Source of the DNA: Armatimonadota bacterium
GTDB lineage: Bacteria > Armatimonadota > UBA5829
Reading direction: 5' to 3'
NCBI GenBank assembly: GCA_029907315.1
Contig: JARYME010000026.1
Location: 1-32,670 of the forward strand
DNA: 32,670 nucleotides
Below, one piece after another: positions 2,439 to 15,626 of this stretch (position 1 is its first letter; the number at the start of each line of letters is the position of its first letter). A model generated the notes under the pieces. It was not told the origin of the DNA, made no database searches, and saw only the letters and a program-made list of their open reading frames with translations. The translations under genes and the position numbers were made by a program.

Positions 2439-2688
2439 TATTCATTTCGGTATTTAGTCCAACAACCCCTTGCGCGAGGCGCATTGTTATGGTATTGTTC
2501 ATTTCGAACAACCCGGCACCCGGCCGTTGTGCGGTGAAGTTCTTAAGCGTACGGGTTGGTAGAGAAAAGACTTTCATTGGTAGTTGGGCAGCTGTGTAAA
2601 GAGATACTGACAATCATTGCCGGGTCTTGCGCATCGGTGCCGGAAGCTCTTGCTTTCGCTGACTAGAAGTCCGCTGCGAGGGGGTTGC
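2439..2688. other. 250-base gap with a GTTC/GAAC inverted repeat
   Basis: No convincing gene lies in this gap. It contains an inverted repeat, TTGTTC at 2495-2500 and GAACAA at 2506-2511, separated by 5 bases. This could be an operator or a small hairpin. No good promoter pair is visible. The 3' end carries the ribosome binding site GAGGGGG (2678-2684) for the following gene. Confidence 0.4.
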
Positions 2689-4896
2689 ATGATGAATGCA
2701 TTGCCTGTTGGTCCGGAGTATGTGTCCTCACCCGAAAGGCGTGCCCGCTACTTCGAAGACCTCGAACGCTGGGGGTTCGATACAGCATACAACGCCTTCT
2801 ATGCTCACCCCTACGATGACGTCGTCGGCAAACTGCGAAGTTCATACATCGATTTCGCATCGGAAGCACGCAAGCGGGGTTACCCTGCTTGCATCCAGAT
2901 TCAGATCACGGTTTGCGCCGGTGACCGCGTCGGTATCGAGGAAGCGCAGTACAACGAGGCGAACGAACCAGAACGCTGGGGGCAAAACGGCTTTTTCGGT
3001 TCATTCAGCTCTGACGCGTGGCTCGATTATTTGAAGGAGATAACCCAGCTCTTCGTTGGCGAATACGGCTACAACCGGGTGGTCTTCGAAGAGCCGATGT
3101 ACCGCGTAGACATTCCCGGAACCAAGGACAGGTTCTACCAAAAGTTTGTTGAGGCACACCCGGATGTTGCCTATCCCAGCTCGAGAACCGAATCGCGGGA
3201 GTACCTGAAGGTCCAGCAAGCCAAAGCCGAGTCTCTCACCAGATTCTGCAGCGAGTTGGTAGCGCACGCTAAGTCTGTAGGGGCTGAGGCCGTTGGCGTG
3301 ATGCCTTGGTTCTTTATTCCGACCATCGAAAATACTCCTGCGGGCACCCTTAATCCGTCTTGCGATATCAAGGCGATAAGCAAGATTGAAGGGCTGGATT
3401 TCCTGGTCGTGAGAATGCAGCCCGACAACATCTTTTGCGGGACGATGCGCACCGGCGACGAAATGACAAGATCGCCGCTACTTTACTACATTGAGGTGAT
3501 GGCCCACGCGCTGGGCAAGCCCATAATAGCGGTCAGCAATCCATCCGACGAACACACCGACTATCCTTCGCTGCCGCTTATTCCTTTCGACTTTTACAGG
3601 GACGCGACGGTTGCCGCCGTCGCTGCTGCGCCGAACGGGTTCACGAGACACTGGTACGGTCAAAACTACGGCAAAGACACAGAGCATATGGCAGTCCTAA
3701 GCAGCGCGGCGCAGCGTGCCAACCGATTGGGCAATCCGAGATCGCCGGTCGCGTTTGTGTTCTCGTATGCGGGCACCCGACACGCTGAGCCTTGGACCTA
3801 CGAAACCGTGTTCAAACACTATTGGGCGTTGGCTAAGGAACTTGCATTTAATCACGGTGTGCCCATGCTCACATTTCACGCGGATACGCTTTCGGAAGAC
3901 CTAGCCGCCCATCCTGAGGTCAGGGTGCTCGTATTCGACGAACACTTCCCTCTGAATAGAGACCAGTTCGCGGCCTTGCGTAGGTGGTGGAAACCTTACG
4001 AAAGGCGCGCAGCTGTATTGTTCGCGTCCGGCTTGGGGTTTGCCGCGGGAACGGACATTCCCGGTGCGGTACCGTCAACATTAGCACACCCAGGGCTCCT
4101 GGAATTAATGGGCCTCAAGCAAGCAGAGGAAGCTCCGCAGTTGCCGACAAAGACTCCGCTGACGCTGGCTTACGTATCGCGTGTACGCCGAAAGGCCTTT
4201 TTGGGCGAGAGTGCTGTGCTGGACACCGACGTTGTAGCGAACGTCAAACGAGCTTTCGGATCGCGCGCCGACGTCCTCTACGCAGCTAGTGTTGACGAAT
4301 CACAAGTGCCGGTGGTGGCGGAATATCGAGATCGCAGCACTATAGCGATTTTCTGCGGTTTCGGACTGACGCAGGGCACGGCCAATGCTGCAGCAAAAGC
4401 TGTGCTCTTCGCGATGCGAGAATCGCACGCGCTGCCCCTCGTGCTGGAACCTTGCACCAAGGGACTGCTATGGAACACAAACAAATTGGGTTACGTGATA
4501 GTCGGCAACGTTTCGGACGAGACCGGCCGGGCTAGGCTGAATGTCGGCAGAGCACTGGTCTGGGACTGCGAACGGTCTATTATCCTTCCCGAAGGGGTAT
4601 GTGAACTTGAAATACCTCCCCACGGATTCTGGCTCTGTAGGGTCTTCAGCCGGCGGTCCAAGCTGTTGGATGTAATCGGCGCAAGCGCGGTTTACGAGAT
4701 AATCGACGGTTCAGGTCGAGCGGATATTCGGTTGTTGGCCGGCCGTCGCACCAATTTGGTTGTGCGCTACCTACCGGAAACTGTCCTGGTGGACGGACGT
4801 CCCTCTTCTATAAACTGTCAGCCCCTCGGCTCCCTATATAGTGTTACCGTGGAACAATGTCCTCCGGGACAGCACCTAATCTCCGTGCGCTGGTAG
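2689..4896 (+). CDS. Putative glycoside hydrolase-like protein, cytoplasmic
   Basis: This large protein (736 residues) has an N-terminal TIM-barrel-like half (about residues 1-340). An FEEP motif on a strand there is a plausible catalytic Glu site. It is followed by a Rossmann-like region (about 355-560) resembling the glutamine-amidotransferase-like trimerisation domain of GH42-type beta-galactosidases, and a small beta-rich C-terminal domain that ends HLISVRW. There is no signal peptide. The start is ATG 2689 or the adjacent ATG 2692, with GAGGGGG at 2678-2684 suitably spaced. A TTG extension to 2617 is possible but has no ribosome binding site. It follows the TIM-barrel gene in the same direction. 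The domain order suggests a glycosidase acting on a small imported sugar; the family and substrate are not recognised, and the domain calls are by eye. Confidence 0.65.
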   Translation: MMNALPVGPEYVSSPERRARYFEDLERWGFDTAYNAFYAHPYDDVVGKLRSSYIDFASEARKRGYPACIQIQITVCAGDRVGIEEAQYNEANEPERWGQNGFFGSFSSDAWLDYLKEITQLFVGEYGYNRVVFEEPMYRVDIPGTKDRFYQKFVEAHPDVAYPSSRTESREYLKVQQAKAESLTRFCSELVAHAKSVGAEAVGVMPWFFIPTIENTPAGTLNPSCDIKAISKIEGLDFLVVRMQPDNIFCGTMRTGDEMTRSPLLYYIEVMAHALGKPIIAVSNPSDEHTDYPSLPLIPFDFYRDATVAAVAAAPNGFTRHWYGQNYGKDTEHMAVLSSAAQRANRLGNPRSPVAFVFSYAGTRHAEPWTYETVFKHYWALAKELAFNHGVPMLTFHADTLSEDLAAHPEVRVLVFDEHFPLNRDQFAALRRWWKPYERRAAVLFASGLGFAAGTDIPGAVPSTLAHPGLLELMGLKQAEEAPQLPTKTPLTLAYVSRVRRKAFLGESAVLDTDVVANVKRAFGSRADVLYAASVDESQVPVVAEYRDRSTIAIFCGFGLTQGTANAAAKAVLFAMRESHALPLVLEPCTKGLLWNTNKLGYVIVGNVSDETGRARLNVGRALVWDCERSIILPEGVCELEIPPHGFWLCRVFSRRSKLLDVIGASAVYEIIDGSGRADIRLLAGRRTNLVVRYLPETVLVDGRPSSINCQPLGSLYSVTVEQCPPGQHLISVRW

Positions 4897-5029: not shown

Positions 5030-5103
5030 ACCGCGGTTGGACTTGGGCGGTTTTCAGCCGGACGTCACAACTTTCTGAGTAACCCAGGTGCAACCGCGGT
5101 TTG
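5030..5103. repeat. Two ACCGCGGT palindromes in the SIS leader
   Basis: ACCGCGGTTGG occurs at 5030-5040 and ACCGCGGTTTGG at 5093-5104. Each is centred on the 8-base palindrome ACCGCGGT, and the two are 63 bases apart (about six helical turns). Both lie between the promoter and the start codon, where a repressor pair could act. Chance occurrence in GC-rich DNA is possible. Confidence 0.35.
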
Positions 5104-5123
5104 GAAGGAGAACAACACAAGCT

Positions 5124-5837
5124 ATGGCTGCGAGTTCGGAACGCTACTACTGTATTGTGAACGATCTGTTGGCTAGGATTGCTTCGACACAGCACGAACG
5201 GATCCAACAGGCAGCAAAAGTAATTGCAGACCACATCGCGGACGGAGGCATCCTGTACCTGCTGGGCAGCGGACATTCGCTGGCAGTAGCTATGGAAGCC
5301 TTTCATCGAGCAGGCGGTCTTGCTCCTGTGGACGTAATCTACGACCGCACTTTCGGCAGAGCAGAGCGGCTTGAAGGTTATGCAGAGACGCTGCTGAAGG
5401 ACTATAATATACCTGCGGGCGGCGTAGTCATAATAATTTCCAATTCCGGGCGCAACGCTTTGCCGATCGAAGTCGCTTTGCACTGCAAAGCCCGTGGGAT
5501 CACAACCATAGCCATCACTTCTCTGGCTCACTCGCAGGCTGTTTCATCCAGACATTCGAGTGGGAAGAGGCTTTTCGAAATAGCCGACATCGTGATCGAC
5601 AACTGCGGAGTTTTTGGAGACGCCGCACTCGACGTCGAAGGCGTCCCCGCGAAGGTCTGCCCTACGTCGGGCATAGCTGGTATGTTTATCATTGAGTCAA
5701 TTGTCGCACAAGTTATCGAGAACCTTGTCAAGGCAGGCCACGAGCCACCTGTCTTCATAAGCGCCAACGTGGACGGCGGAGACGAGCACAACGCTCGGTT
5801 ATACGAAAAGTACTGGCACAGAATCAGAGGACTGTAG
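5124..5837 (+). CDS. SIS-domain sugar isomerase-like protein, UPF0309 type
   Basis: The protein is a 237-residue cytoplasmic SIS (sugar isomerase) domain protein. Characteristic pieces in order are LLGSGHSLAVAMEAFHRAGGLAPV, written here only as its LGSGHS core, then RLEGYAETLL, the phosphosugar-loop-like IIISNSGRNALPIE, ITSLAHS, DIVIDNCG, and the C-terminal PPVFISANVDGGDE. These match my recollection of the UPF0309 family, whose members are of this length and are thought to bind or isomerise a phosphosugar. The start is ATG 5124 with GGAAGGAG upstream at a rather long spacing of 13 bases; GTG 5088 is an alternative without a ribosome binding site. The next gene begins 2 bases after the stop, so they form an operon. 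Family placement is confident; the reaction is not known. Confidence 0.8.
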   Translation: MAASSERYYCIVNDLLARIASTQHERIQQAAKVIADHIADGGILYLLGSGHSLAVAMEAFHRAGGLAPVDVIYDRTFGRAERLEGYAETLLKDYNIPAGGVVIIISNSGRNALPIEVALHCKARGITTIAITSLAHSQAVSSRHSSGKRLFEIADIVIDNCGVFGDAALDVEGVPAKVCPTSGIAGMFIIESIVAQVIENLVKAGHEPPVFISANVDGGDEHNARLYEKYWHRIRGL

Positions 5838-5839
5838 AT

Positions 5840-7006
5840 ATGAACCCACGCATACCCGTAGCCATTCTAGCCCTACTAGTTTTGGTCGCTCTCGTGTGGC
5901 GAATTGCCAATCCTCCTGCACCTCCCATGCCCGGTCCCCTGGGCACGATTCCCACTTGGGACAGCCAAACCAAGATCGGCAATATGAGTTCCTGTGCAGT
6001 GAGCCCTTCGGGCCAGTATTGGGCAGGGGCCTGGAACGAAAAGAAGAAGGACGGCGAGTTGCGGTCGGCGGTCCTGGTCATAGACCTAGAAAGGTCGCGC
6101 AGCTACCAACAACCGATGAAAACGGGTTTCTTTGTCACAAGCATCGGCTGGGCTGACGACGCGAACCTTTGGGCTCTGCTGATCAACTCAGATAGTCCAG
6201 AAGGTGCGACTCAAGCCAAACTAGCGTGGATACGTCGCGCGGGCAAAGACCGGTTGAACTATGACCTGAGCGCCCTCAAAGAACCTGTCGTAAGAATTTT
6301 GGATTGGCCCGAGCGCTCGAAATTGTTCCTTGGGGAAATAAGGCGTGCCTCTGCCCCACGCGTGGGAGTGTTCAACCGTCAAGGCAATGTCGTGGGGAAA
6401 CTCGTCGACGCGCCGGTGCCGCGCGGGAGCTCACTTGGAAAGACCGGCGCGCTAAGCAGCAACGGCAGGCTTTTTGTTTTCTCGATCATAGAGGACAAGA
6501 TCGGTGGCGCCGTGAGTTACTATCTGGGTGATTCTACATCTGGTACCGCAAAGAGAATTTTCGGCTCAGAGCAGCTGCCTGGGCGCGTTGAAGACCTATG
6601 GGTCTCGCCCTATGGAGTACTGGTCGCGTGCGCAGAACGCGAAAACTTCCACGTGTTGGTTTATCCGCTCGCTGCCCCGCGGCCGAAGCTGACAGCAATC
6701 CAGCAGCTCAAGCTGCGCCCCGATGAGTTATCAAAATACTGGCCCGACGCGCCGCGAGTGATGATGTTTGCTACCTATAACGGCGGCTACGCTCTCGACA
6801 TGGCGACTGGTAAGCTACGGCAATTGTTCGATCTCACGAAACTCGATAGGTACTCCGATGTCTGGCGCAGACAGATCCAGGACGGCAGGCTTTATCCGCG
6901 CAAAGACGGTGATTATACGTCAGTTTCGGTCTTGGCTGACGAGGTGGACATCAGGGTAATTAGGAAATCGGGCGACCGAGGACCAAATATTCTGCCGCGG
7001 CGCTAA
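5840..7006 (+). CDS. Membrane-anchored protein of unknown function, possibly beta-propeller
   Basis: This 388-residue protein begins with a single hydrophobic segment (about residues 5-21, VAILALLVLVALVW) that is a signal anchor or uncleaved signal peptide. A Pro-rich linker and a large extracytoplasmic domain follow. The domain is rich in short beta strands with repeated patterns such as SPSGQYWAGAW, SSNGRLFVFS and SPYGVLVACA, which resemble blades of a WD40/TolB-like propeller. No catalytic motif is visible. It starts 2 bases after the SIS gene stop, with GAGGA upstream, and ends 3 bases before the uridylyltransferase gene, so the three are very likely co-transcribed. I do not recognise the family; the propeller reading is inference from spacing of the strands. 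Confidence 0.7.
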   Translation: MNPRIPVAILALLVLVALVWRIANPPAPPMPGPLGTIPTWDSQTKIGNMSSCAVSPSGQYWAGAWNEKKKDGELRSAVLVIDLERSRSYQQPMKTGFFVTSIGWADDANLWALLINSDSPEGATQAKLAWIRRAGKDRLNYDLSALKEPVVRILDWPERSKLFLGEIRRASAPRVGVFNRQGNVVGKLVDAPVPRGSSLGKTGALSSNGRLFVFSIIEDKIGGAVSYYLGDSTSGTAKRIFGSEQLPGRVEDLWVSPYGVLVACAERENFHVLVYPLAAPRPKLTAIQQLKLRPDELSKYWPDAPRVMMFATYNGGYALDMATGKLRQLFDLTKLDRYSDVWRRQIQDGRLYPRKDGDYTSVSVLADEVDIRVIRKSGDRGPNILPRR

Positions 7007-7009
7007 CAA

Positions 7010-7825
7010 ATGCTTGTGCAAGACCCTTCAGCGGAGCGCGGCAGCCCGCGAGTAACTGCATCGGAGGACATGGAGAAGGCAGCGGCACCAGTTGGGTTGA
7101 TTCTTGCCGCAGGACGCGGAACGCGCTTCGTGCGCACCGGCGTTCCTCCGAGACCTAAGGTGCTCGAGCCTCTCCAAGGCAAGCCGCTTGTGTGCCACGT
7201 GCTGGAAACCCTGCGCGAAGCAGGTGTGAAGCGCGTTATCGTCGTGGTTGGTTTCGGAGCTGAGCAAGTCGAAAGCGTCTTAGACAGCGCAGTCGAGTAC
7301 GCTCGACAGGATGTTCAGCTAGGTTCGGGGCACGCCGTGAAGTGCGCGCTGGCATCGCTTCCCCAACCCGAAGGACCTGTCGTGGTGATGTGCGGAGACA
7401 GTCCGCTTTTTAAGACGGAGACGATCCGTGCTATGCTGGACGAACAGCGCAAGACCGGCGCAGCAGTCGTTCTGACGTCGGCTGTGGTCGAAGACCCTAC
7501 CGGCTACGGGCGCATAGTTCGAGATGAGAAGGGATTGGCTCAGCGGATAGTCGAGGAAAAGTGTGCAAACGCCGCGGAGCGCACTATAAAAGAGGTCAAC
7601 GGCGGAGCGTACGTTTTCTGGGGTCCCTGGCTGGCTTCGAATATAGAGCGCATGTCGAAGAACGACGCGGGGGAGTACAACCTGACGGACATGATTCGGC
7701 TCGCAGTTGAGCAGGGTAAGAATGTGAGTGTGGTCCGGTGTGAGCCTGATGAGATACTAGGGGTAAATACCCCTGATGATTTAGTGCGCGCGGAGGCTGT
7801 TTTGAGAAGCCGTCTGCGGCACTAG
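7010..7825 (+). CDS. GlmU-type nucleotidyltransferase without acetyltransferase domain
   Basis: This protein matches the N-terminal uridylyltransferase half of GlmU, which makes UDP-GlcNAc from UTP and GlcNAc-1-phosphate. Visible motifs are LILAAGRGTR, PKVLEPLQGKPL, QLGSGHAV, CGDSPLF, GYGRIVRDE, RIVEEK and EVNGGAYVF, in the GlmU order. It has 271 residues and stops where full-length GlmU would continue into the left-handed beta-helix acetyltransferase. There is a small insertion after the GTR motif (FVRTGVPPR). Cytoplasmic. The start is uncertain: ATG 7010 lacks a ribosome binding site but follows the previous stop by 3 bases, and ATG 7070 has GGAGG only 2 bases away. Because galT and galK follow, the real substrate could be glucose- or galactose-1-phosphate rather than GlcNAc-1-phosphate. 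Confidence 0.8.
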   Translation: MLVQDPSAERGSPRVTASEDMEKAAAPVGLILAAGRGTRFVRTGVPPRPKVLEPLQGKPLVCHVLETLREAGVKRVIVVVGFGAEQVESVLDSAVEYARQDVQLGSGHAVKCALASLPQPEGPVVVMCGDSPLFKTETIRAMLDEQRKTGAAVVLTSAVVEDPTGYGRIVRDEKGLAQRIVEEKCANAAERTIKEVNGGAYVFWGPWLASNIERMSKNDAGEYNLTDMIRLAVEQGKNVSVVRCEPDEILGVNTPDDLVRAEAVLRSRLRH

Positions 7826-7840: not shown

Positions 7841-8011
7841 ATGGCGAAGTCTGACGAACGGACTCCTCAGTCTGTGAAAATGCAAAAGAAGCGAATCATA
7901 CTCGACGACGGCAGGTACCTGATTTACTATTCCTTCGGAGAGAAACGCGGCGAAGACGAAGGCGGAACGTCCGAGTCGAATGCGTGCAGTGGTGCGGAGG
8001 ATAGAAGCTGA
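7841..8011 (+). CDS. 56-residue protein translationally coupled to galT
   Basis: This small gene encodes 56 residues. Its middle (residues 16-32, KKRIILDDGRYLIYYSF) is the only ordered-looking part and resembles a short beta hairpin; the C-terminal 24 residues are acidic, Gly/Ser-rich and probably disordered. ATG 7841 has AAGGG at 7830-7834. The stop codon TGA (8009-8011) shares its last base with the ATG of galT (TGATG), and the galT ribosome binding site GGAGG (7996-8000) lies inside this gene. That layout implies translational coupling. It lies 15 bases after the uridylyltransferase gene. I do not recognise the protein. A role as a small accessory or regulator of GalT is inference from position alone. 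Confidence 0.6.
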   Translation: MAKSDERTPQSVKMQKKRIILDDGRYLIYYSFGEKRGEDEGGTSESNACSGAEDRS

Positions 8012-9012
8012 TGTCTGAGCTGCGATGGCACCCGATACTGGAAGAGTGGGTAATTACCGCGACGCATAGGATGGATCGCACATTCCTGCCGCCTGATGAT
8101 TTTTGTCCGCTGTGTCCCACCAGATCCGAGGAGTATCCGACTGAAATCCCAGCGCAGGACTACGAGATAGTCACGTTTGAGAATCGGTTTCCTTCGTTAC
8201 AGCACCCTCCTCCTAAGCCTGCGGTACGAGACTCAGAGCTCTACAAGGTTCGACCTGCCGACGGCATCTGCGAAGTGTTGTGCTACACATCTAGACATAC
8301 AGGCACACTGACCGACGCAACAGTCAACGAGATAAGAAACCTTGTCGAAGTGTGGGCTGACCGCTTCAGGGAACTCGGCTCCAAGGACTTCATAGACTAC
8401 GTGCTTATTTTCGAGAACAAGGGCACCGTGATAGGGGTAACGCTTACACACCCTCACGGGCAGATATATGCGTTTCCATTCGTCCCGCCTAAGATTCAGA
8501 GGGAACTCCAGTCGGCTTCGAAGCATATGGCCACAACTGGCAGGTGTCTGTTCTGCGACATCATCAAAGAGGAAGTCGCTGACGGGCGCAGAATAGTCGT
8601 GGAAAACAATTCTTTCATCGCTGTGGTGCCATTTTTTGCAAGGTTTCCGTATGAAGTGTATGTGTTTCCGAAACGGCACCACCAAACCATGTTGACACTC
8701 GACGATAACGAGCGCTGCGATCTTGCCGGTATACTGAAAGCTGTGCTTCTAAAATACGATAACCTGTGGGGCATTTCGATGCCTTACATGATGATTATGC
8801 ACCAGGCGCCTACGGACGGTCGCGACTACGGCTATTATCACTATCACATAGAGTTTCATCCGCCGCATCGAACTAAGGATAAACTAAAATATCTTGCCGG
8901 CTGCGAAACTGGAGCCGGCACATACATAGTCGACGCGCTGCCGGAAGAAACGGCTGCTAAACTGCGTGAAGCTGAACCGAGCACGATGAACAACACATTT
9001 CTCGAAATGTGA
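8011..9012 (+). CDS. galT: Galactose-1-phosphate uridylyltransferase
   Basis: GalT exchanges UMP between UDP-glucose and galactose-1-phosphate in the Leloir pathway (cytoplasm). The sequence shows the active-site motif HPHGQ at residues 147-151, in which the second His carries the uridylyl group. It also shows the N-terminal zinc pair Cys32/Cys35 (CPLC), FENRFPSL at 56-63, and the second HIT-like half with HYHIEFHPPHR. The length of 333 residues is usual for the family. ATG 8011 overlaps the stop of the small upstream gene by one base and has GGAGG 10 bases upstream. galK lies 1.6 kb downstream in the same direction, with only a radical SAM gene between. No galE or galM is present in the window. 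Confidence 0.92.
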   Translation: MSELRWHPILEEWVITATHRMDRTFLPPDDFCPLCPTRSEEYPTEIPAQDYEIVTFENRFPSLQHPPPKPAVRDSELYKVRPADGICEVLCYTSRHTGTLTDATVNEIRNLVEVWADRFRELGSKDFIDYVLIFENKGTVIGVTLTHPHGQIYAFPFVPPKIQRELQSASKHMATTGRCLFCDIIKEEVADGRRIVVENNSFIAVVPFFARFPYEVYVFPKRHHQTMLTLDDNERCDLAGILKAVLLKYDNLWGISMPYMMIMHQAPTDGRDYGYYHYHIEFHPPHRTKDKLKYLAGCETGAGTYIVDALPEETAAKLREAEPSTMNNTFLEM

Positions 9013-9114
9013 GGGAAGAATTTTCCTCCTACCAGGTGTAGCCGAATCGAGCTGTCGAACGCTTTTGGTAGTTCCGAAAGATGGTTTAAGTAGCCAGTGA
9101 AGGGGTGGTAAGAG

Positions 9115-10617
9115 GTGTCTCGAATTAAGAAAGTTGCACTTATCGAACCGCGAGCCCCAGGATATCACGTCTATAGTCGAATTGCGCTTCCGCGGTTGGG
9201 GCTTCCGCTAATAGGCGCTATGCTGAAGCAGCGCGGTATTGATGTAACCGTGTACTGTCAGGACTTCGTGGATATCGACTATTCAGACGTGCTGAGCTCT
9301 GACCTTGTGGGGATATCGACAACCACGTCAACTGCTCCCGAGGGCTACCGCATTGCCCAACGCATAAGAGAAGCAGGTATACCTGTCGTGATGGGAGGGT
9401 CACACGTTACATTCCTCCCCGACGAAGCCCTTCAGTACGCAGACTTCTGCGTGCGGGGAGAGGGCGAATACACAATGTTGGAGCTCGTTGACGCGATAGA
9501 ATCCGGCTCCGGGTTTGGAAACATCGCCGGATTATCCTACCGAATAGGAGACGAAATCCGCCACAATCCGCCGCGGGAGCTCGTTCAAGATCTTGACGCC
9601 CTTCCATTTCCGGATCTTTCGCTGATAAGAGGACGCGAGAAGATGGGCATTACCCCCATTGCCACCTCCAGAGGATGTCCTTACAACTGCAACTTCTGTA
9701 GCGTGATCAAGATGTTCGGCAGGGGGTACCGGCAGCGAAGCGTCGACAGCGTAATAGAAGAGCTCAGATACCTACAACCCGAAACGGTATTCTTTTATGA
9801 CGACAACTTTGCCGGCAACCGCGAGCGGGCAAAAGCTCTACTGGAACGTATGTTGTCCGAAGGATTGACGCCTTATTGGACTGCGCAGGTGCGGGTGGAC
9901 ATCGCACGCGACAGAGAGCTGCTTGCGCTTATGAAACGCAGCAATTGCTATATTCTGTACATCGGCCTGGAATCGGTTAATCCGGCGACACTGCAGGAGT
10001 TCAACAAGAAGCAAAGCGTAGAAGAAATCATCGAAGCGGTCCGCATCATCCACGAACACGGCATCATGATTCACGGCATGTTCGTATTTGGCGCGGAGCA
10101 CGACGATGTGAGTGATCTGCGCGCCGCAGCAAACTTCGCGCTGCGTACAGGGATAGACACCGTGCAGTTTATGATTCTTACACCCTTGCCCGGAACGGCT
10201 TACTTTGATCAAATGGAGCGCGAGGGCAGGTTGCTAACGCGGGAGTGGCATCTTTACGATGGGCAGCATGTGGTATTCCAGCCGGCTCAGATGAGCCCCT
10301 ACGAATTGCAAAAGGAAACATTCAAGGCGATGAGGCGGTTCTACAGCATCTACGAGTGCGTCAAGATGTTTGCACCGCCGCAGTTTCTCCGCTTTATGCT
10401 CAAGCTCAACTTCAACTTACTGAGAGGCAAGTGGCAGGACGCCAGGTTGCAAATGCGGGTTGCGCTTCGGAGATGGTTCTACCGAGCCTATGGCCATGTA
10501 CTAATCAAGCGTTGGGAAGCTGCCAACAAAGACTTCGGTGAAAAGATCAGAATGCTGGCCGAAAAGGCCCGCTCTATGGGCGCAGCCAAACAAACGAGCG
10601 TGGGAAAGGCAAAGTGA
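9115..10617 (+). CDS. B12-binding radical SAM protein
   Basis: The first 150 residues form a cobalamin-binding Rossmann-like domain (GLPLIGAMLKQRGIDV, DLVGISTTTST, VVMGGSHVTF, VRGEGEYT). The radical SAM domain follows, with the cluster motif Cys188-x3-Cys192-x2-Cys195 (SRGCPYNCNFCS). The C-terminal part is basic and helical, as in BchE- and HpnJ-like enzymes that modify lipids or tetrapyrroles. The family carries out methylation or ring rearrangement using a 5'-deoxyadenosyl radical. The GTG start has AAGGGGTGG upstream at good spacing. Its stop overlaps the galK start by one base (TGATG, or four bases if GTG 10614 is used), so it is coupled to galK. Substrate unknown; the position suggests a sugar or glycolipid, but this is inference. 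Confidence 0.85.
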   Translation: MSRIKKVALIEPRAPGYHVYSRIALPRLGLPLIGAMLKQRGIDVTVYCQDFVDIDYSDVLSSDLVGISTTTSTAPEGYRIAQRIREAGIPVVMGGSHVTFLPDEALQYADFCVRGEGEYTMLELVDAIESGSGFGNIAGLSYRIGDEIRHNPPRELVQDLDALPFPDLSLIRGREKMGITPIATSRGCPYNCNFCSVIKMFGRGYRQRSVDSVIEELRYLQPETVFFYDDNFAGNRERAKALLERMLSEGLTPYWTAQVRVDIARDRELLALMKRSNCYILYIGLESVNPATLQEFNKKQSVEEIIEAVRIIHEHGIMIHGMFVFGAEHDDVSDLRAAANFALRTGIDTVQFMILTPLPGTAYFDQMEREGRLLTREWHLYDGQHVVFQPAQMSPYELQKETFKAMRRFYSIYECVKMFAPPQFLRFMLKLNFNLLRGKWQDARLQMRVALRRWFYRAYGHVLIKRWEAANKDFGEKIRMLAEKARSMGAAKQTSVGKAK

Positions 10618-11783
10618 TGACACAAGAGAGAGTTAAGGAAGTTACAGATCACTTCCGGAGGGTTTTCGGCAGCGAACCGCAGAGAATAGTCAGAGCTCCG
10701 GGGCGCGTCGAGCTCTTGGGGAATCACACCGACTACAACGAGGGTTTCGTGCTTCCGGCAGCCCTAGACCTAGACGTTATGGCGGCGGGAAGCTTGCGCA
10801 ACGACGATCTGGTGTCGGCTTACTCAGCGAACTTCGACACCCTTGTAGAGTTTCCTCTTTCCCGAATCGAAAAAGATCTTGTGAATACCTGGTCGAACTA
10901 CGTAAGAGGCGTACTGAAGTTCTTGGGTGAATCCGGTGTTCGGCTCCAAGGGGTCAACATGGCAATCAGCGGCAACGTGCCGGTCGGATCGGGGCTGTCG
11001 AGTTCAGCAGCAATCGAAATGGCGGTCGGTTTCCTGATGCAGGCGCTTGTCGGATTTGAGATGTCCGGTCCAGACCTCGCCTTAATCGGTCAGCGGGCTG
11101 AAAACGAGTTTGTCGGCGTAAGCACCGGGATAATGGACCAGTTCGTTTCACGACTCGGCAAGAAGGACCATGCGCTTTTTCTGGACTGTCGCACGCTGTG
11201 CTATGAGCACGTGCCGCTTGAGACAAGGTCTATAAAGATAGTCGTGTGTGATACTATGAAGCGCCGCGGGCTCGTAGACAGCGAGTACGATCAGAGGCGC
11301 GCACAGTGCGAGGAGGCCGTGCGGCTACTCAGCCAATGGATTCCTAATGTGCGAGCACTCCGAGATGTGAGCAAGGGTGACTTCGAACTGTATAAGGACA
11401 GACTGCCCGAAGTGATACGCAAGCGCGCGCAGCACGTCATATACGAAAATGAGCGGGTACTTAAAAGCCGAGAGGTGCTCAACGCCGGAGACTATGAATC
11501 TTTCGCTAGGCTCTTGGATGAGTGCCACGAATCGGCGCGAGATCTCTACGAAGTCAGTTGCGCCGAGTTAGACACGATGGTGGAGATTTGTCGACAGGCG
11601 CCAGGGGCGATGTGCGCGAGGCTGACGGGAGCAGGGTTTGGCGGCTGCACGGTCAGCCTTGTTCGCGATGAGCACGTCGACGCGTTCGTGAACGCGGTTA
11701 AGACGGGTTACGCTGAACGCACCGGTGTAACACCTGCAATCTACGTTTGCACGGCGGAGGACGGCGCTAGCATTGTTCAGTAG
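10617..11783 (+). CDS. galK: Galactokinase
   Basis: GalK phosphorylates galactose at C1 with ATP, the first committed Leloir step (cytoplasm). It is a GHMP kinase with all three hallmarks: the galactokinase signature GRVELLGNHTDYNEGFVLPA near the N-terminus, the ATP-binding loop VPVGSGLSSSAA near residue 122, and the C-terminal TGAGFGGCTVSLV. The length (388 residues) is normal. ATG 10617 is preferred because AAAGG lies 7 bases upstream; GTG 10614 is an alternative adding one residue. The start overlaps the radical SAM stop codon, so the two are translationally coupled. With galT nearby this is one functional unit. Confidence 0.93.
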   Translation: MTQERVKEVTDHFRRVFGSEPQRIVRAPGRVELLGNHTDYNEGFVLPAALDLDVMAAGSLRNDDLVSAYSANFDTLVEFPLSRIEKDLVNTWSNYVRGVLKFLGESGVRLQGVNMAISGNVPVGSGLSSSAAIEMAVGFLMQALVGFEMSGPDLALIGQRAENEFVGVSTGIMDQFVSRLGKKDHALFLDCRTLCYEHVPLETRSIKIVVCDTMKRRGLVDSEYDQRRAQCEEAVRLLSQWIPNVRALRDVSKGDFELYKDRLPEVIRKRAQHVIYENERVLKSREVLNAGDYESFARLLDECHESARDLYEVSCAELDTMVEICRQAPGAMCARLTGAGFGGCTVSLVRDEHVDAFVNAVKTGYAERTGVTPAIYVCTAEDGASIVQ

Positions 11784-11852: not shown

Positions 11853-12383
11853 GTGAACTGCAGGAAGTGCGGTGCTGAGCTTCACCCTGAACAAAAAGTC
11901 TGTATACAGTGCGGTGAAGTAACGGCTGCAGGCGGCAAATTCGATGTCGAGGAGGAGCGTGCCTGGCGTCCGACACCTCGACAACTGCAAGCAGCCGGCG
12001 GGCTGGCTGCGCTTTTGATCCTGATTTTCGTGTTTTACAAAGCACTCCACGTAGTGCCGCCCGATGTAGTTGCAAAGAATTGGTTCGAGGCTATGCTTTC
12101 GCGCAGCTATGCGGCGGCAGACGATCACGTCACTACCTCGTTCCAGCAGGATTTGAGCGCTAGAATGATGGATATGCGCGCACTTGCCGAAACGTGGATC
12201 GAGGACATAACCGCCAACAATGCAAAATACACATTCAGCCCTCCCGAATTTGACAATTCAGCCAGCCCTCGTAAGGCTCGAATCATGATCACTATCCAAT
12301 CTCCTGACGGCCAAATTGTGCGGCAGGTCCTGCTGGATATGATCAAAATCGGTAGGCGGTGGAAGATAGATAGAGCGCTATAG
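11853..12383 (+). CDS. Zinc-ribbon membrane protein with C-terminal NTF2-like domain
   Basis: The 176-residue protein starts with a zinc ribbon (MNCRKCGAE...VCIQCGE, two CxxC pairs at residues 3-6 and 17-20). A short acidic and basic linker follows, then one transmembrane helix (about residues 50-66, GGLAALLILIFVFYKAL). The C-terminal region of about 105 residues has the pattern of DUF4878/NTF2-like extracytoplasmic domains: a helix with WFEAMLSRSYAAADDHV, then strands ending with RRWKIDRAL. The GTG start has GAGAGGTG 7 bases upstream. It stands 69 bases after galK and 129 bases before pyrK and may be its own transcript. The topology is a guess: ribbon inside, C-terminal domain outside. Function unknown. 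Confidence 0.7.
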   Translation: MNCRKCGAELHPEQKVCIQCGEVTAAGGKFDVEEERAWRPTPRQLQAAGGLAALLILIFVFYKALHVVPPDVVAKNWFEAMLSRSYAAADDHVTTSFQQDLSARMMDMRALAETWIEDITANNAKYTFSPPEFDNSASPRKARIMITIQSPDGQIVRQVLLDMIKIGRRWKIDRAL

Positions 12384-14415: not shown

Positions 14416-14817
14416 ATGCCTGCATTTTCAGATCCGTTCTACGGAAATGTACCACCTAAGAAACTCACATTAGGCGAACTAATCAGGGCTATCAGGCTCA
14501 ACATCGCCGCCGAGGAGGAAGCGGCCGCGGTTTACGAAGCTCACGCTGAGGCGACCGACAATCCCCTCGCGCGAAAAGTTCTCTTGGACATTGCCAATGA
14601 GGAGAGGGTCCACGTCGGCGAGTTCGTAGAGCTCTTGGATATCCTGACTAAACAAGAAGAGAAGGCTTGGATGGAGCAAGGGTACGAAGAAGTTCGAGAG
14701 CTTGCCGAAGAGGTCGCTAGGGGAGATGTGGAACCCGCAAGTCCTGCGGAAAAGGCTGCAGAAGCGAGCGGTGCAGCGGGTGAACAGACCACTATCGGGT
14801 CTCTGAAGGAGGATTAA
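14416..14817 (+). CDS. Encapsulated ferritin-like cargo protein
   Basis: This 133-residue protein is the iron-storage cargo of the adjacent encapsulin. Two helices (about residues 17-46 and 50-80) carry the ferroxidase ligands expected for the EncFtn type: a Glu cluster at 33-35 and the ExxH pair Glu63/His66. The family assembles as a ring of dimers to complete its diiron site. After a charged third helix and an Ala/Glu/Pro-rich linker (about 104-124), the C-terminus TTIGSLKED (residues 125-133) matches the canonical family 1 encapsulin targeting peptide that docks cargo to the inner shell wall. AAGGAGG (14398-14404) precedes the ATG at a spacing of 11 bases. The shell gene starts 2 bases after its stop. 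No convincing promoter was found in the 116 bases upstream. Confidence 0.9.
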   Translation: MPAFSDPFYGNVPPKKLTLGELIRAIRLNIAAEEEAAAVYEAHAEATDNPLARKVLLDIANEERVHVGEFVELLDILTKQEEKAWMEQGYEEVRELAEEVARGDVEPASPAEKAAEASGAAGEQTTIGSLKED

Positions 14818-14819
14818 CC

Positions 14820-15626
14820 ATGGCAAACAAGTTTCTCGGTCGTGAAGATGCGCCTATTGAGGAAAAGACGTGGAAAGCTTTGGACGAGGCGGTCATAAGA
14901 ACCGTAAAGGCTCAGCTGTCCGGTAGAAGACTGCTTGAGATCGAGGGTCCCTTCGGTCTTCACACAAAGTCCGTCCCCTTGGAAGACGCTGTGATCGAGG
15001 ACGGCAAGGTGAGCGTTTATGCAGCGCGTGTGTTGCCTGTTCCATTGATGCAAACGACGTTCACACTCTCAGCTCGCGACCTTGCTGCGTTCGAGAAAAC
15101 GGGCTTCGCATTTGATTGCAAAGAAGTGGTTGATGCAGCAGCGGCGATTGCCCAGGCCGAAGACGTACTGGTGTTCGAGGGTAGCAAGACCTTGGGCATA
15201 GAGGGTTTACTAACTGCAAAAGGTACTGCGTCAGTCAAACTGAGCAGCTGGCAAGACGTGGGTGCGGCTGCCAACGACATAATCAAAGCCGTAACCGCCT
15301 TGGATGAGGCGGGCTTCCATGGACCATATGCTCTCGCACTGGCACCGAGTTTGTACAACCTGCTTCAGCGGGTGTATCCTCACGGGAACCTTACCGAAGC
15401 TCAGCACATTCAAAGCATAGTAGGAAGCAAGGTCATCAAGGCACCGGCTCTCAAGCAAGGAGGAGTGCTTATAGCTTCGGGCAAACAGTTCGCGTCCCTG
15501 GTTTTGGCCCAGGATTTGATGGTCGGGTTCATCGGCCCAACCGGTTCCGGCTTTGAGTTCCAGTTGTCGGAAAGCTTGGTGCCGCGGATAAAGGTTCCGT
15601 CTTCCATCTGCGTGCTCAAACCTTGA
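14820..15626 (+). CDS. Family 1 encapsulin shell protein
   Basis: The protein (268 residues) has the length and sequence of HK97-fold encapsulins of the Linocin_M18 family, which self-assemble into a protein nanocompartment in the cytoplasm. Visible signatures are the N-terminal REDAPIEEKTWKALDEAV, RRLLEIEGPFGLHTKSVPL, the DCKEVVDAAAAIAQAED region, GIEGLL, GPYALALAPSLYNLL, and the C-terminal LAQDLMVGFIGPTGSGFEFQLSES with E-loop-like tail. The size is that of T=1 (60-subunit) shells such as the Thermotoga maritima one. ATG 14820 lies 2 bases after the cargo stop with GGAGG (within 14808-14812) as ribosome binding site, so cargo and shell are one operon. Iron storage and protection from oxidative stress is the known role of this pair. 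Confidence 0.93.
   Translation: MANKFLGREDAPIEEKTWKALDEAVIRTVKAQLSGRRLLEIEGPFGLHTKSVPLEDAVIEDGKVSVYAARVLPVPLMQTTFTLSARDLAAFEKTGFAFDCKEVVDAAAAIAQAEDVLVFEGSKTLGIEGLLTAKGTASVKLSSWQDVGAAANDIIKAVTALDEAGFHGPYALALAPSLYNLLQRVYPHGNLTEAQHIQSIVGSKVIKAPALKQGGVLIASGKQFASLVLAQDLMVGFIGPTGSGFEFQLSESLVPRIKVPSSICVLKP

Follow-up and report, generated by a model that had tools for sequence, protein, structure and literature searches.

A B12-binding radical SAM gene in the galT–galK operon of an Armatimonadota bacterium: an old operon member with a possible role in envelope lipid or glycan modification

Organization of the locus

The stretch of DNA analysed here (the window, 32,670 bp of contig JARYME010000026.1) comes from a 3.3 Mb Armatimonadota metagenome-assembled genome (MAG) that is 97% complete (G000). 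At positions 9115-10617, on the forward strand, it carries a gene with a GTG start, termed rSAM, whose 500-amino-acid product is recognized from the open reading frame listing and Pfam as a B12-binding radical SAM protein. The gene is flanked on the same strand by galT, encoding galactose-1-phosphate uridylyltransferase (8011-9012; TIGR00209, 217 bits vs a cut-off of 102), and galK, encoding galactokinase (10614-11783; TIGR00131, 384 bits vs a cut-off of 227). A preliminary description, made from the sequence alone, had placed a B12-binding radical SAM gene between galT and galK and about 100 bases after galT. Both points are borne out: the Pfam domains and the two gal families all exceed their cut-offs, and the gap between the galT end at 9012 and the rSAM start measures 102 bases (9013-9114, forward strand), with a purine-rich, ribosome-binding-like stretch, AAGGGGTGGTAAGAG, ahead of the GTG codon. 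At the other end, galK begins with GTG (10614) or ATG (10617) in the sequence GTGATG and overlaps the rSAM stop codon TGA (10615-10617). The translational coupling to galK described earlier can be inferred from that overlap.

The three genes belong to a longer forward-strand run. The upstream members encode a SIS-domain sugar isomerase-like protein (5088-5837; NF002805, 287 bits vs a cut-off of 135), a conserved 388-amino-acid protein with no Pfam match (5840-7006) and a GlmU-N-like sugar-1-phosphate nucleotidyltransferase that lacks the acetyltransferase half (7010-7825; PF12804/PF00483 and NCBIfam). After galK, the next member encodes a small zinc-ribbon-like protein (11853-12383; PF13240, below the cut-off) in which inspection by eye suggests one membrane stretch; in relatives this gene remains with rSAM and galK. 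The run ends with pyrK and pyrD, the latter named from its sequence. No Rfam match is present anywhere in the window, and a cobalamin riboswitch was thus not found; a consensus promoter scan gave no signal exceeding chance.

Two other regions of the window deserve mention. Upstream and in the same direction is an open reading frame of 759 amino acids (2617-4896) with no Pfam or NCBIfam match. At 14416-15626, an encapsulin shell protein gene (Linocin_M18, 260 bits) lies directly 3' of one for a ferritin-like protein of 133 amino acids, which ends in TTIGSLKED, a sequence resembling an encapsulin cargo tag. The pair probably constitutes an encapsulated-ferritin nanocompartment.

Elsewhere in the genome galE is found (428 bits vs a cut-off of 262), and therefore the Leloir set (galK, galT and galE) is present. 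CobS (PF02654) was not found in the G000 genome; hence the bacterium may rely on cobalamin from its surroundings.

Domains, cluster motif and fold

The product of rSAM is almost certainly a B12-type radical SAM protein. Pfam gives 73.1 bits for Radical_SAM (PF04055, cut-off 29.5) and 55.5 bits for the B12-binding domain (PF02310, cut-off 32.1). The B12-binding domain spans approximately residues 26-124 and the radical SAM core residues 184-331, and basic helices occupy the C-terminal end (423-499). The cluster motif CxxxCxxC is formed by C188, C192 and C195, which do not vary in either of two alignments, of 22 and of 35 relatives. No other cysteine is invariant in these alignments, so nothing points to a SPASM-type auxiliary-cluster domain.

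An AlphaFold model of high confidence (pLDDT 92.2, pTM 0.89) places the C-terminal helices at 423-436, 440-470 and 474-499; a hydrophobic-moment scan finds them basic and moderately amphipathic. The nearest folds in the PDB are MgmA (9ccb), AprD4 (6fd2), TsrM (6wte), OxsB (5ul4) and CysS, the first four with a fold probability of 1.00, TM-scores on the query of 0.61-0.71 and identities of 15-23%. The N-terminal Rossmann domain finds its fold matches in OxsB, TsrM and CysS. AprD4 is a dehydratase that is not known to use cobalamin despite a related N-terminal domain, a reason for caution over cobalamin binding by rSAM. The loop after strand 3, which holds the residue under the cobalt, is rich in Thr and Ser in rSAM, the alignment to a BchE reference being uncertain there; for this reason the residue was not taken as a sign for or against methylase activity. 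Does the fold point to a substrate? The reactions represented among these nearest folds differ and are diverse, including C-methylation, sugar dehydration and ring contraction, and therefore the fold does not name one for rSAM.

Relation to known families

The preliminary description held that a tight grouping with a family of unrelated role, such as those of bacteriochlorophyll or hopanoid synthesis, would count against a function of rSAM in sugar metabolism. No such grouping is seen, as BchE, HpnJ and HpnR all score below their curated cut-offs. The top NCBIfam match, BchE (TIGR02026), covers residues 22-477 and reaches 165.9 bits vs a cut-off of 481, about a third of what equivalog assignment demands; for scale, an annotated BchE reference scores 828 bits. 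HpnJ (TIGR03471) is second with 158.5 bits (cut-off 577.6), followed by HpnR (TIGR04367; 137.7 bits, cut-off 650) and the B12 radical SAM protein of ladder-type lipids (TIGR04072; 115.8 bits, cut-off 360), all short of equivalog level. Matches on plasmids comprise one labelled BchE reference, and the remainder have no family assignment at the threshold used. By these profile scores, rSAM appears to represent a subfamily outside all curated families tested, without an assigned function and found here mainly in Armatimonadota. Its nearest relatives outside this phylum are in two Bacillota MAGs (about 46-50% identity), an Oligoflexia MAG (42%) and a Spirochaetales MAG (40%). The Bacillota proteins (L045:4992-6770 and L040:2444-4456) have a C-terminal extension that by eye resembles a STAS-type domain.

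Several identities were considered and set aside. A bacteriochlorophyll role was dropped because rSAM attains a third of the BchE cut-off, although BchE shares with rSAM the order of B12-binding domain, radical SAM core and C-terminal extension. Squalene-hopene cyclase (PF13249) was not found in G000, G001, G002, G015 or G017, which makes hopanoid production improbable in the window's genus; with HpnJ and HpnR below threshold as well, a hopanoid role was dropped for this genus. Gms, the GMGT synthase, is likewise a radical SAM enzyme that acts on membrane lipids, but it is a SPASM-domain enzyme (PMC11186832), whereas rSAM has no further invariant cysteines, and this identity was also abandoned.

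Conservation of the gene order

Is the position between galT and galK peculiar to one genome? A search of 291 Armatimonadota genomes (E ≤ 1e-90) yielded rSAM orthologues in 21, of which 11 belong to the order of the window. In 10 of these 11, rSAM is directly 5' of galK with a gap that does not exceed a few tens of bases, and these ten make up the full set of genomes in the order with both genes. The position of galT is more variable. It is closely upstream of rSAM in five genomes (G000, G002, G014, G005 and G015). In G001 it is about 600 bases away on the upstream side, with a small unassigned open reading frame in the gap, and in G011 one alpha-L-rhamnosidase-like (GH106) gene (L119:9561-12662) separates it from rSAM; in G004, G008 and G013 it is elsewhere and the rSAM-galK pair is retained. 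The galT-rSAM-galK neighbourhood, whose conservation was a point to be checked, is thus conserved within the order and not unique to the window genome.

Orthologues with 93, 82 and 70% identity retain the order in independent MAGs. Between rSAM and the G002 orthologue dN is 0.04 and dS about 1.9, which is near saturation, with dN/dS far below 1; judged from such substitutions, the gene is under strong purifying selection. Retention in independent MAGs together with this ratio argues that the locus is the product of neither chance nor misassembly.

Outside the order, galT and rSAM are adjacent on one strand in G107 (family f11), with galK elsewhere. In the rSAM tree the G107 protein clusters with those of f27/f30 with high support and outside the f1/f2 clade, and so the galT-rSAM pair there is not the window's version acquired by recent transfer. 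The other outside-order orthologues lie at contig ends or among unrelated genes, most of them away from gal genes. A Gfo/Idh/MocA oxidoreductase gene adjoins the orthologue in G060 (L127:8058-9056, overlapping) and in G046 (L126:5416-6750).

The separation of f2 from f1 is well supported in the tree, which fits a single entry into the operon before these families split. The rSAM gene probably entered the galT-galK operon once, before the f1/f2 split, with later losses. The recurrence of the neighbourhood within the order, and of the galT-rSAM pair in G107, marks the operon position as old, and rSAM is very probably an inherited member of long standing.

Separation of rSAM from the gal genes

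In four genomes (G009, G003, G016 and G026) galT and galK are directly adjacent and there is no rSAM orthologue, G009 being of the same genus as the rSAM-bearing G005. The converse is found in G017. Here an intact rSAM has the zinc-ribbon-like gene as its next neighbour downstream, and the place that galK would occupy between the two is empty; galK was not found in this genome, which is 92% complete, such that a copy elsewhere could be missed. Within a 19 kb contig, galT is an internally deleted remnant (L211:8306-8647, G017:C161) in which the start is fused to residues about 111-204, and the broken galT holds regardless of the completeness of the genome. The gal-only genomes and G017 together indicate that each of the two, enzyme and Leloir pathway, can occur without the other: rSAM is not present with, and lost with, galK and galT as a Leloir enzyme would be. 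Its survival in G017 beyond that of galT makes it improbable that galactose use requires this enzyme.

One other B12 radical SAM gene near galK was found, 92 bases after galK in G029 (L132:8306-11016). It belongs to a different family and clade and is so placed in one of the 16 genomes that have that family; it was therefore dropped as a recurring link with galK, and it illustrates that single adjacencies do occur.

What might the enzyme do?

Three features, namely the candidate membrane-facing helices, the similarity to BchE and HpnJ over the full length and the location in a sugar operon, speak for a membrane-associated, BchE/HpnJ-like enzyme that acts on an envelope lipid or glycan and is co-expressed with UDP-sugar supply. 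This is put forward tentatively, at somewhat less than an even chance, and an envelope lipid or glycan as the substrate is held with about the same reserve. The protein would bind cobalamin, sit at the membrane via its basic C-terminal helices as a candidate anchor, and, by means of a 5'-deoxyadenosyl radical, modify an envelope lipid (sugar-bearing or other) or glycan, much as BchE, HpnJ or GrsA do. Its gene would be co-expressed in an operon with the enzymes that set the supply of UDP-glucose and UDP-galactose, the protein itself constituting no Leloir step. For GrsA, membrane anchoring via C-terminal helices has been proposed (PMC11186832). HpnJ makes a cyclitol ether from a lipid-attached sugar (PMC12583986) and offers a precedent that makes lipid-sugar chemistry a plausible type for rSAM; close kinship is not claimed, as rSAM is below the HpnJ threshold and the window's genus has no detected squalene-hopene cyclase. 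The calditol synthase (Cds) of Sulfolobales, a radical SAM protein proposed to ring-contract a hexose lipid headgroup (PMC9385802), is likened to rSAM by its described chemistry alone and serves as a lead, again with no close kinship claimed. A more specific and highly speculative version, for which the chances are slight, makes rSAM a bacterial radical enzyme of a new type, turning the galactosyl (hexosyl) headgroup of a lipid into a carbocyclic or C-modified one by ring contraction or some other rebuilding. Retention of the gene in the galactose operon would then tie headgroup production to UDP-galactose supply.

The main rival, nearly as likely as the envelope lipid or glycan reading, is that rSAM is an incidental passenger, which landed downstream of galT in an ancestor and is transcribed with galK while its role is unrelated to sugars. 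The clean presence or absence of rSAM between galT and galK in sister genomes is what would be expected of a passenger, as are its persistence in G017, where galT is broken and galK undetected, and the unrelated neighbours of most orthologues outside the order. The unrelated family beside galK in G029 points the same way, and the next operon members (the zinc-ribbon protein, pyrK and pyrD) are likewise not galactose genes. Yet rSAM and galK are unbroken in all ten genomes of the order with both, even in the three from which galT has moved off, and the adjacency of galT and rSAM recurs in G107.

Could rSAM instead be a cobalamin-dependent C-methyltransferase whose substrate is a small molecule, a peptide or a cofactor? 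Methyl transfer is the best-known reaction of the superfamily (PMC13331322), and MgmA, a glutamine C-methyltransferase, is the best PDB match both by sequence and by fold. However, identity to MgmA is just 23% in the fold alignment, the MCR glutamine C-methyltransferase family reaches 109 bits vs a cut-off of 360, and an unsystematic look beside rSAM saw no precursor peptide or biosynthetic cluster; this alternative is considered unlikely. More doubtful still is a sugar-use step, whereby rSAM would convert a modified galactose or sugar phosphate to a form acceptable to GalK and GalT. The location inside the operon with an overlap of galK agrees with it, as do sugar-related neighbours of orthologues (the alpha-L-rhamnosidase-like gene in G011 and the Gfo/Idh/MocA oxidoreductase gene in G060) and the presence of AprD4, a sugar-acting radical SAM enzyme, among the nearest folds; but in G017 the orthologue remains intact although galT is broken and galK was not found, and the full galT-galK pair is retained without rSAM in G009, G003 and others.

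The preliminary description had suggested that the enzyme acts on a galactose-derived sugar or glycolipid. Its functional proposal is partly supported: the family identity and the operon are confirmed, and a galactose-derived substrate is weakened. As to a Leloir metabolite, G017, the gal-only G009 and G003, and the location of most outside-order orthologues away from gal genes all speak against it. A sugar-bearing lipid or glycan keeps its place among the candidates because GalE also makes UDP-galactose, and galactosyl donors can come from this source too. In the open-licence literature, no paper was found that joins galactokinase or the Leloir pathway with a B12 radical SAM enzyme.

Significance

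The relatives provide a natural series, with genomes carrying both rSAM and the gal genes, the gal genes only or the radical enzyme only, which makes the question of function testable. The stable place of rSAM in a sugar operon is a hint as to where its substrate should be sought. Should the enzyme prove to modify a glycolipid, HpnJ and calditol synthase would gain a bacterial counterpart; otherwise, the locus would stand as a caution against inferring function from operon position.
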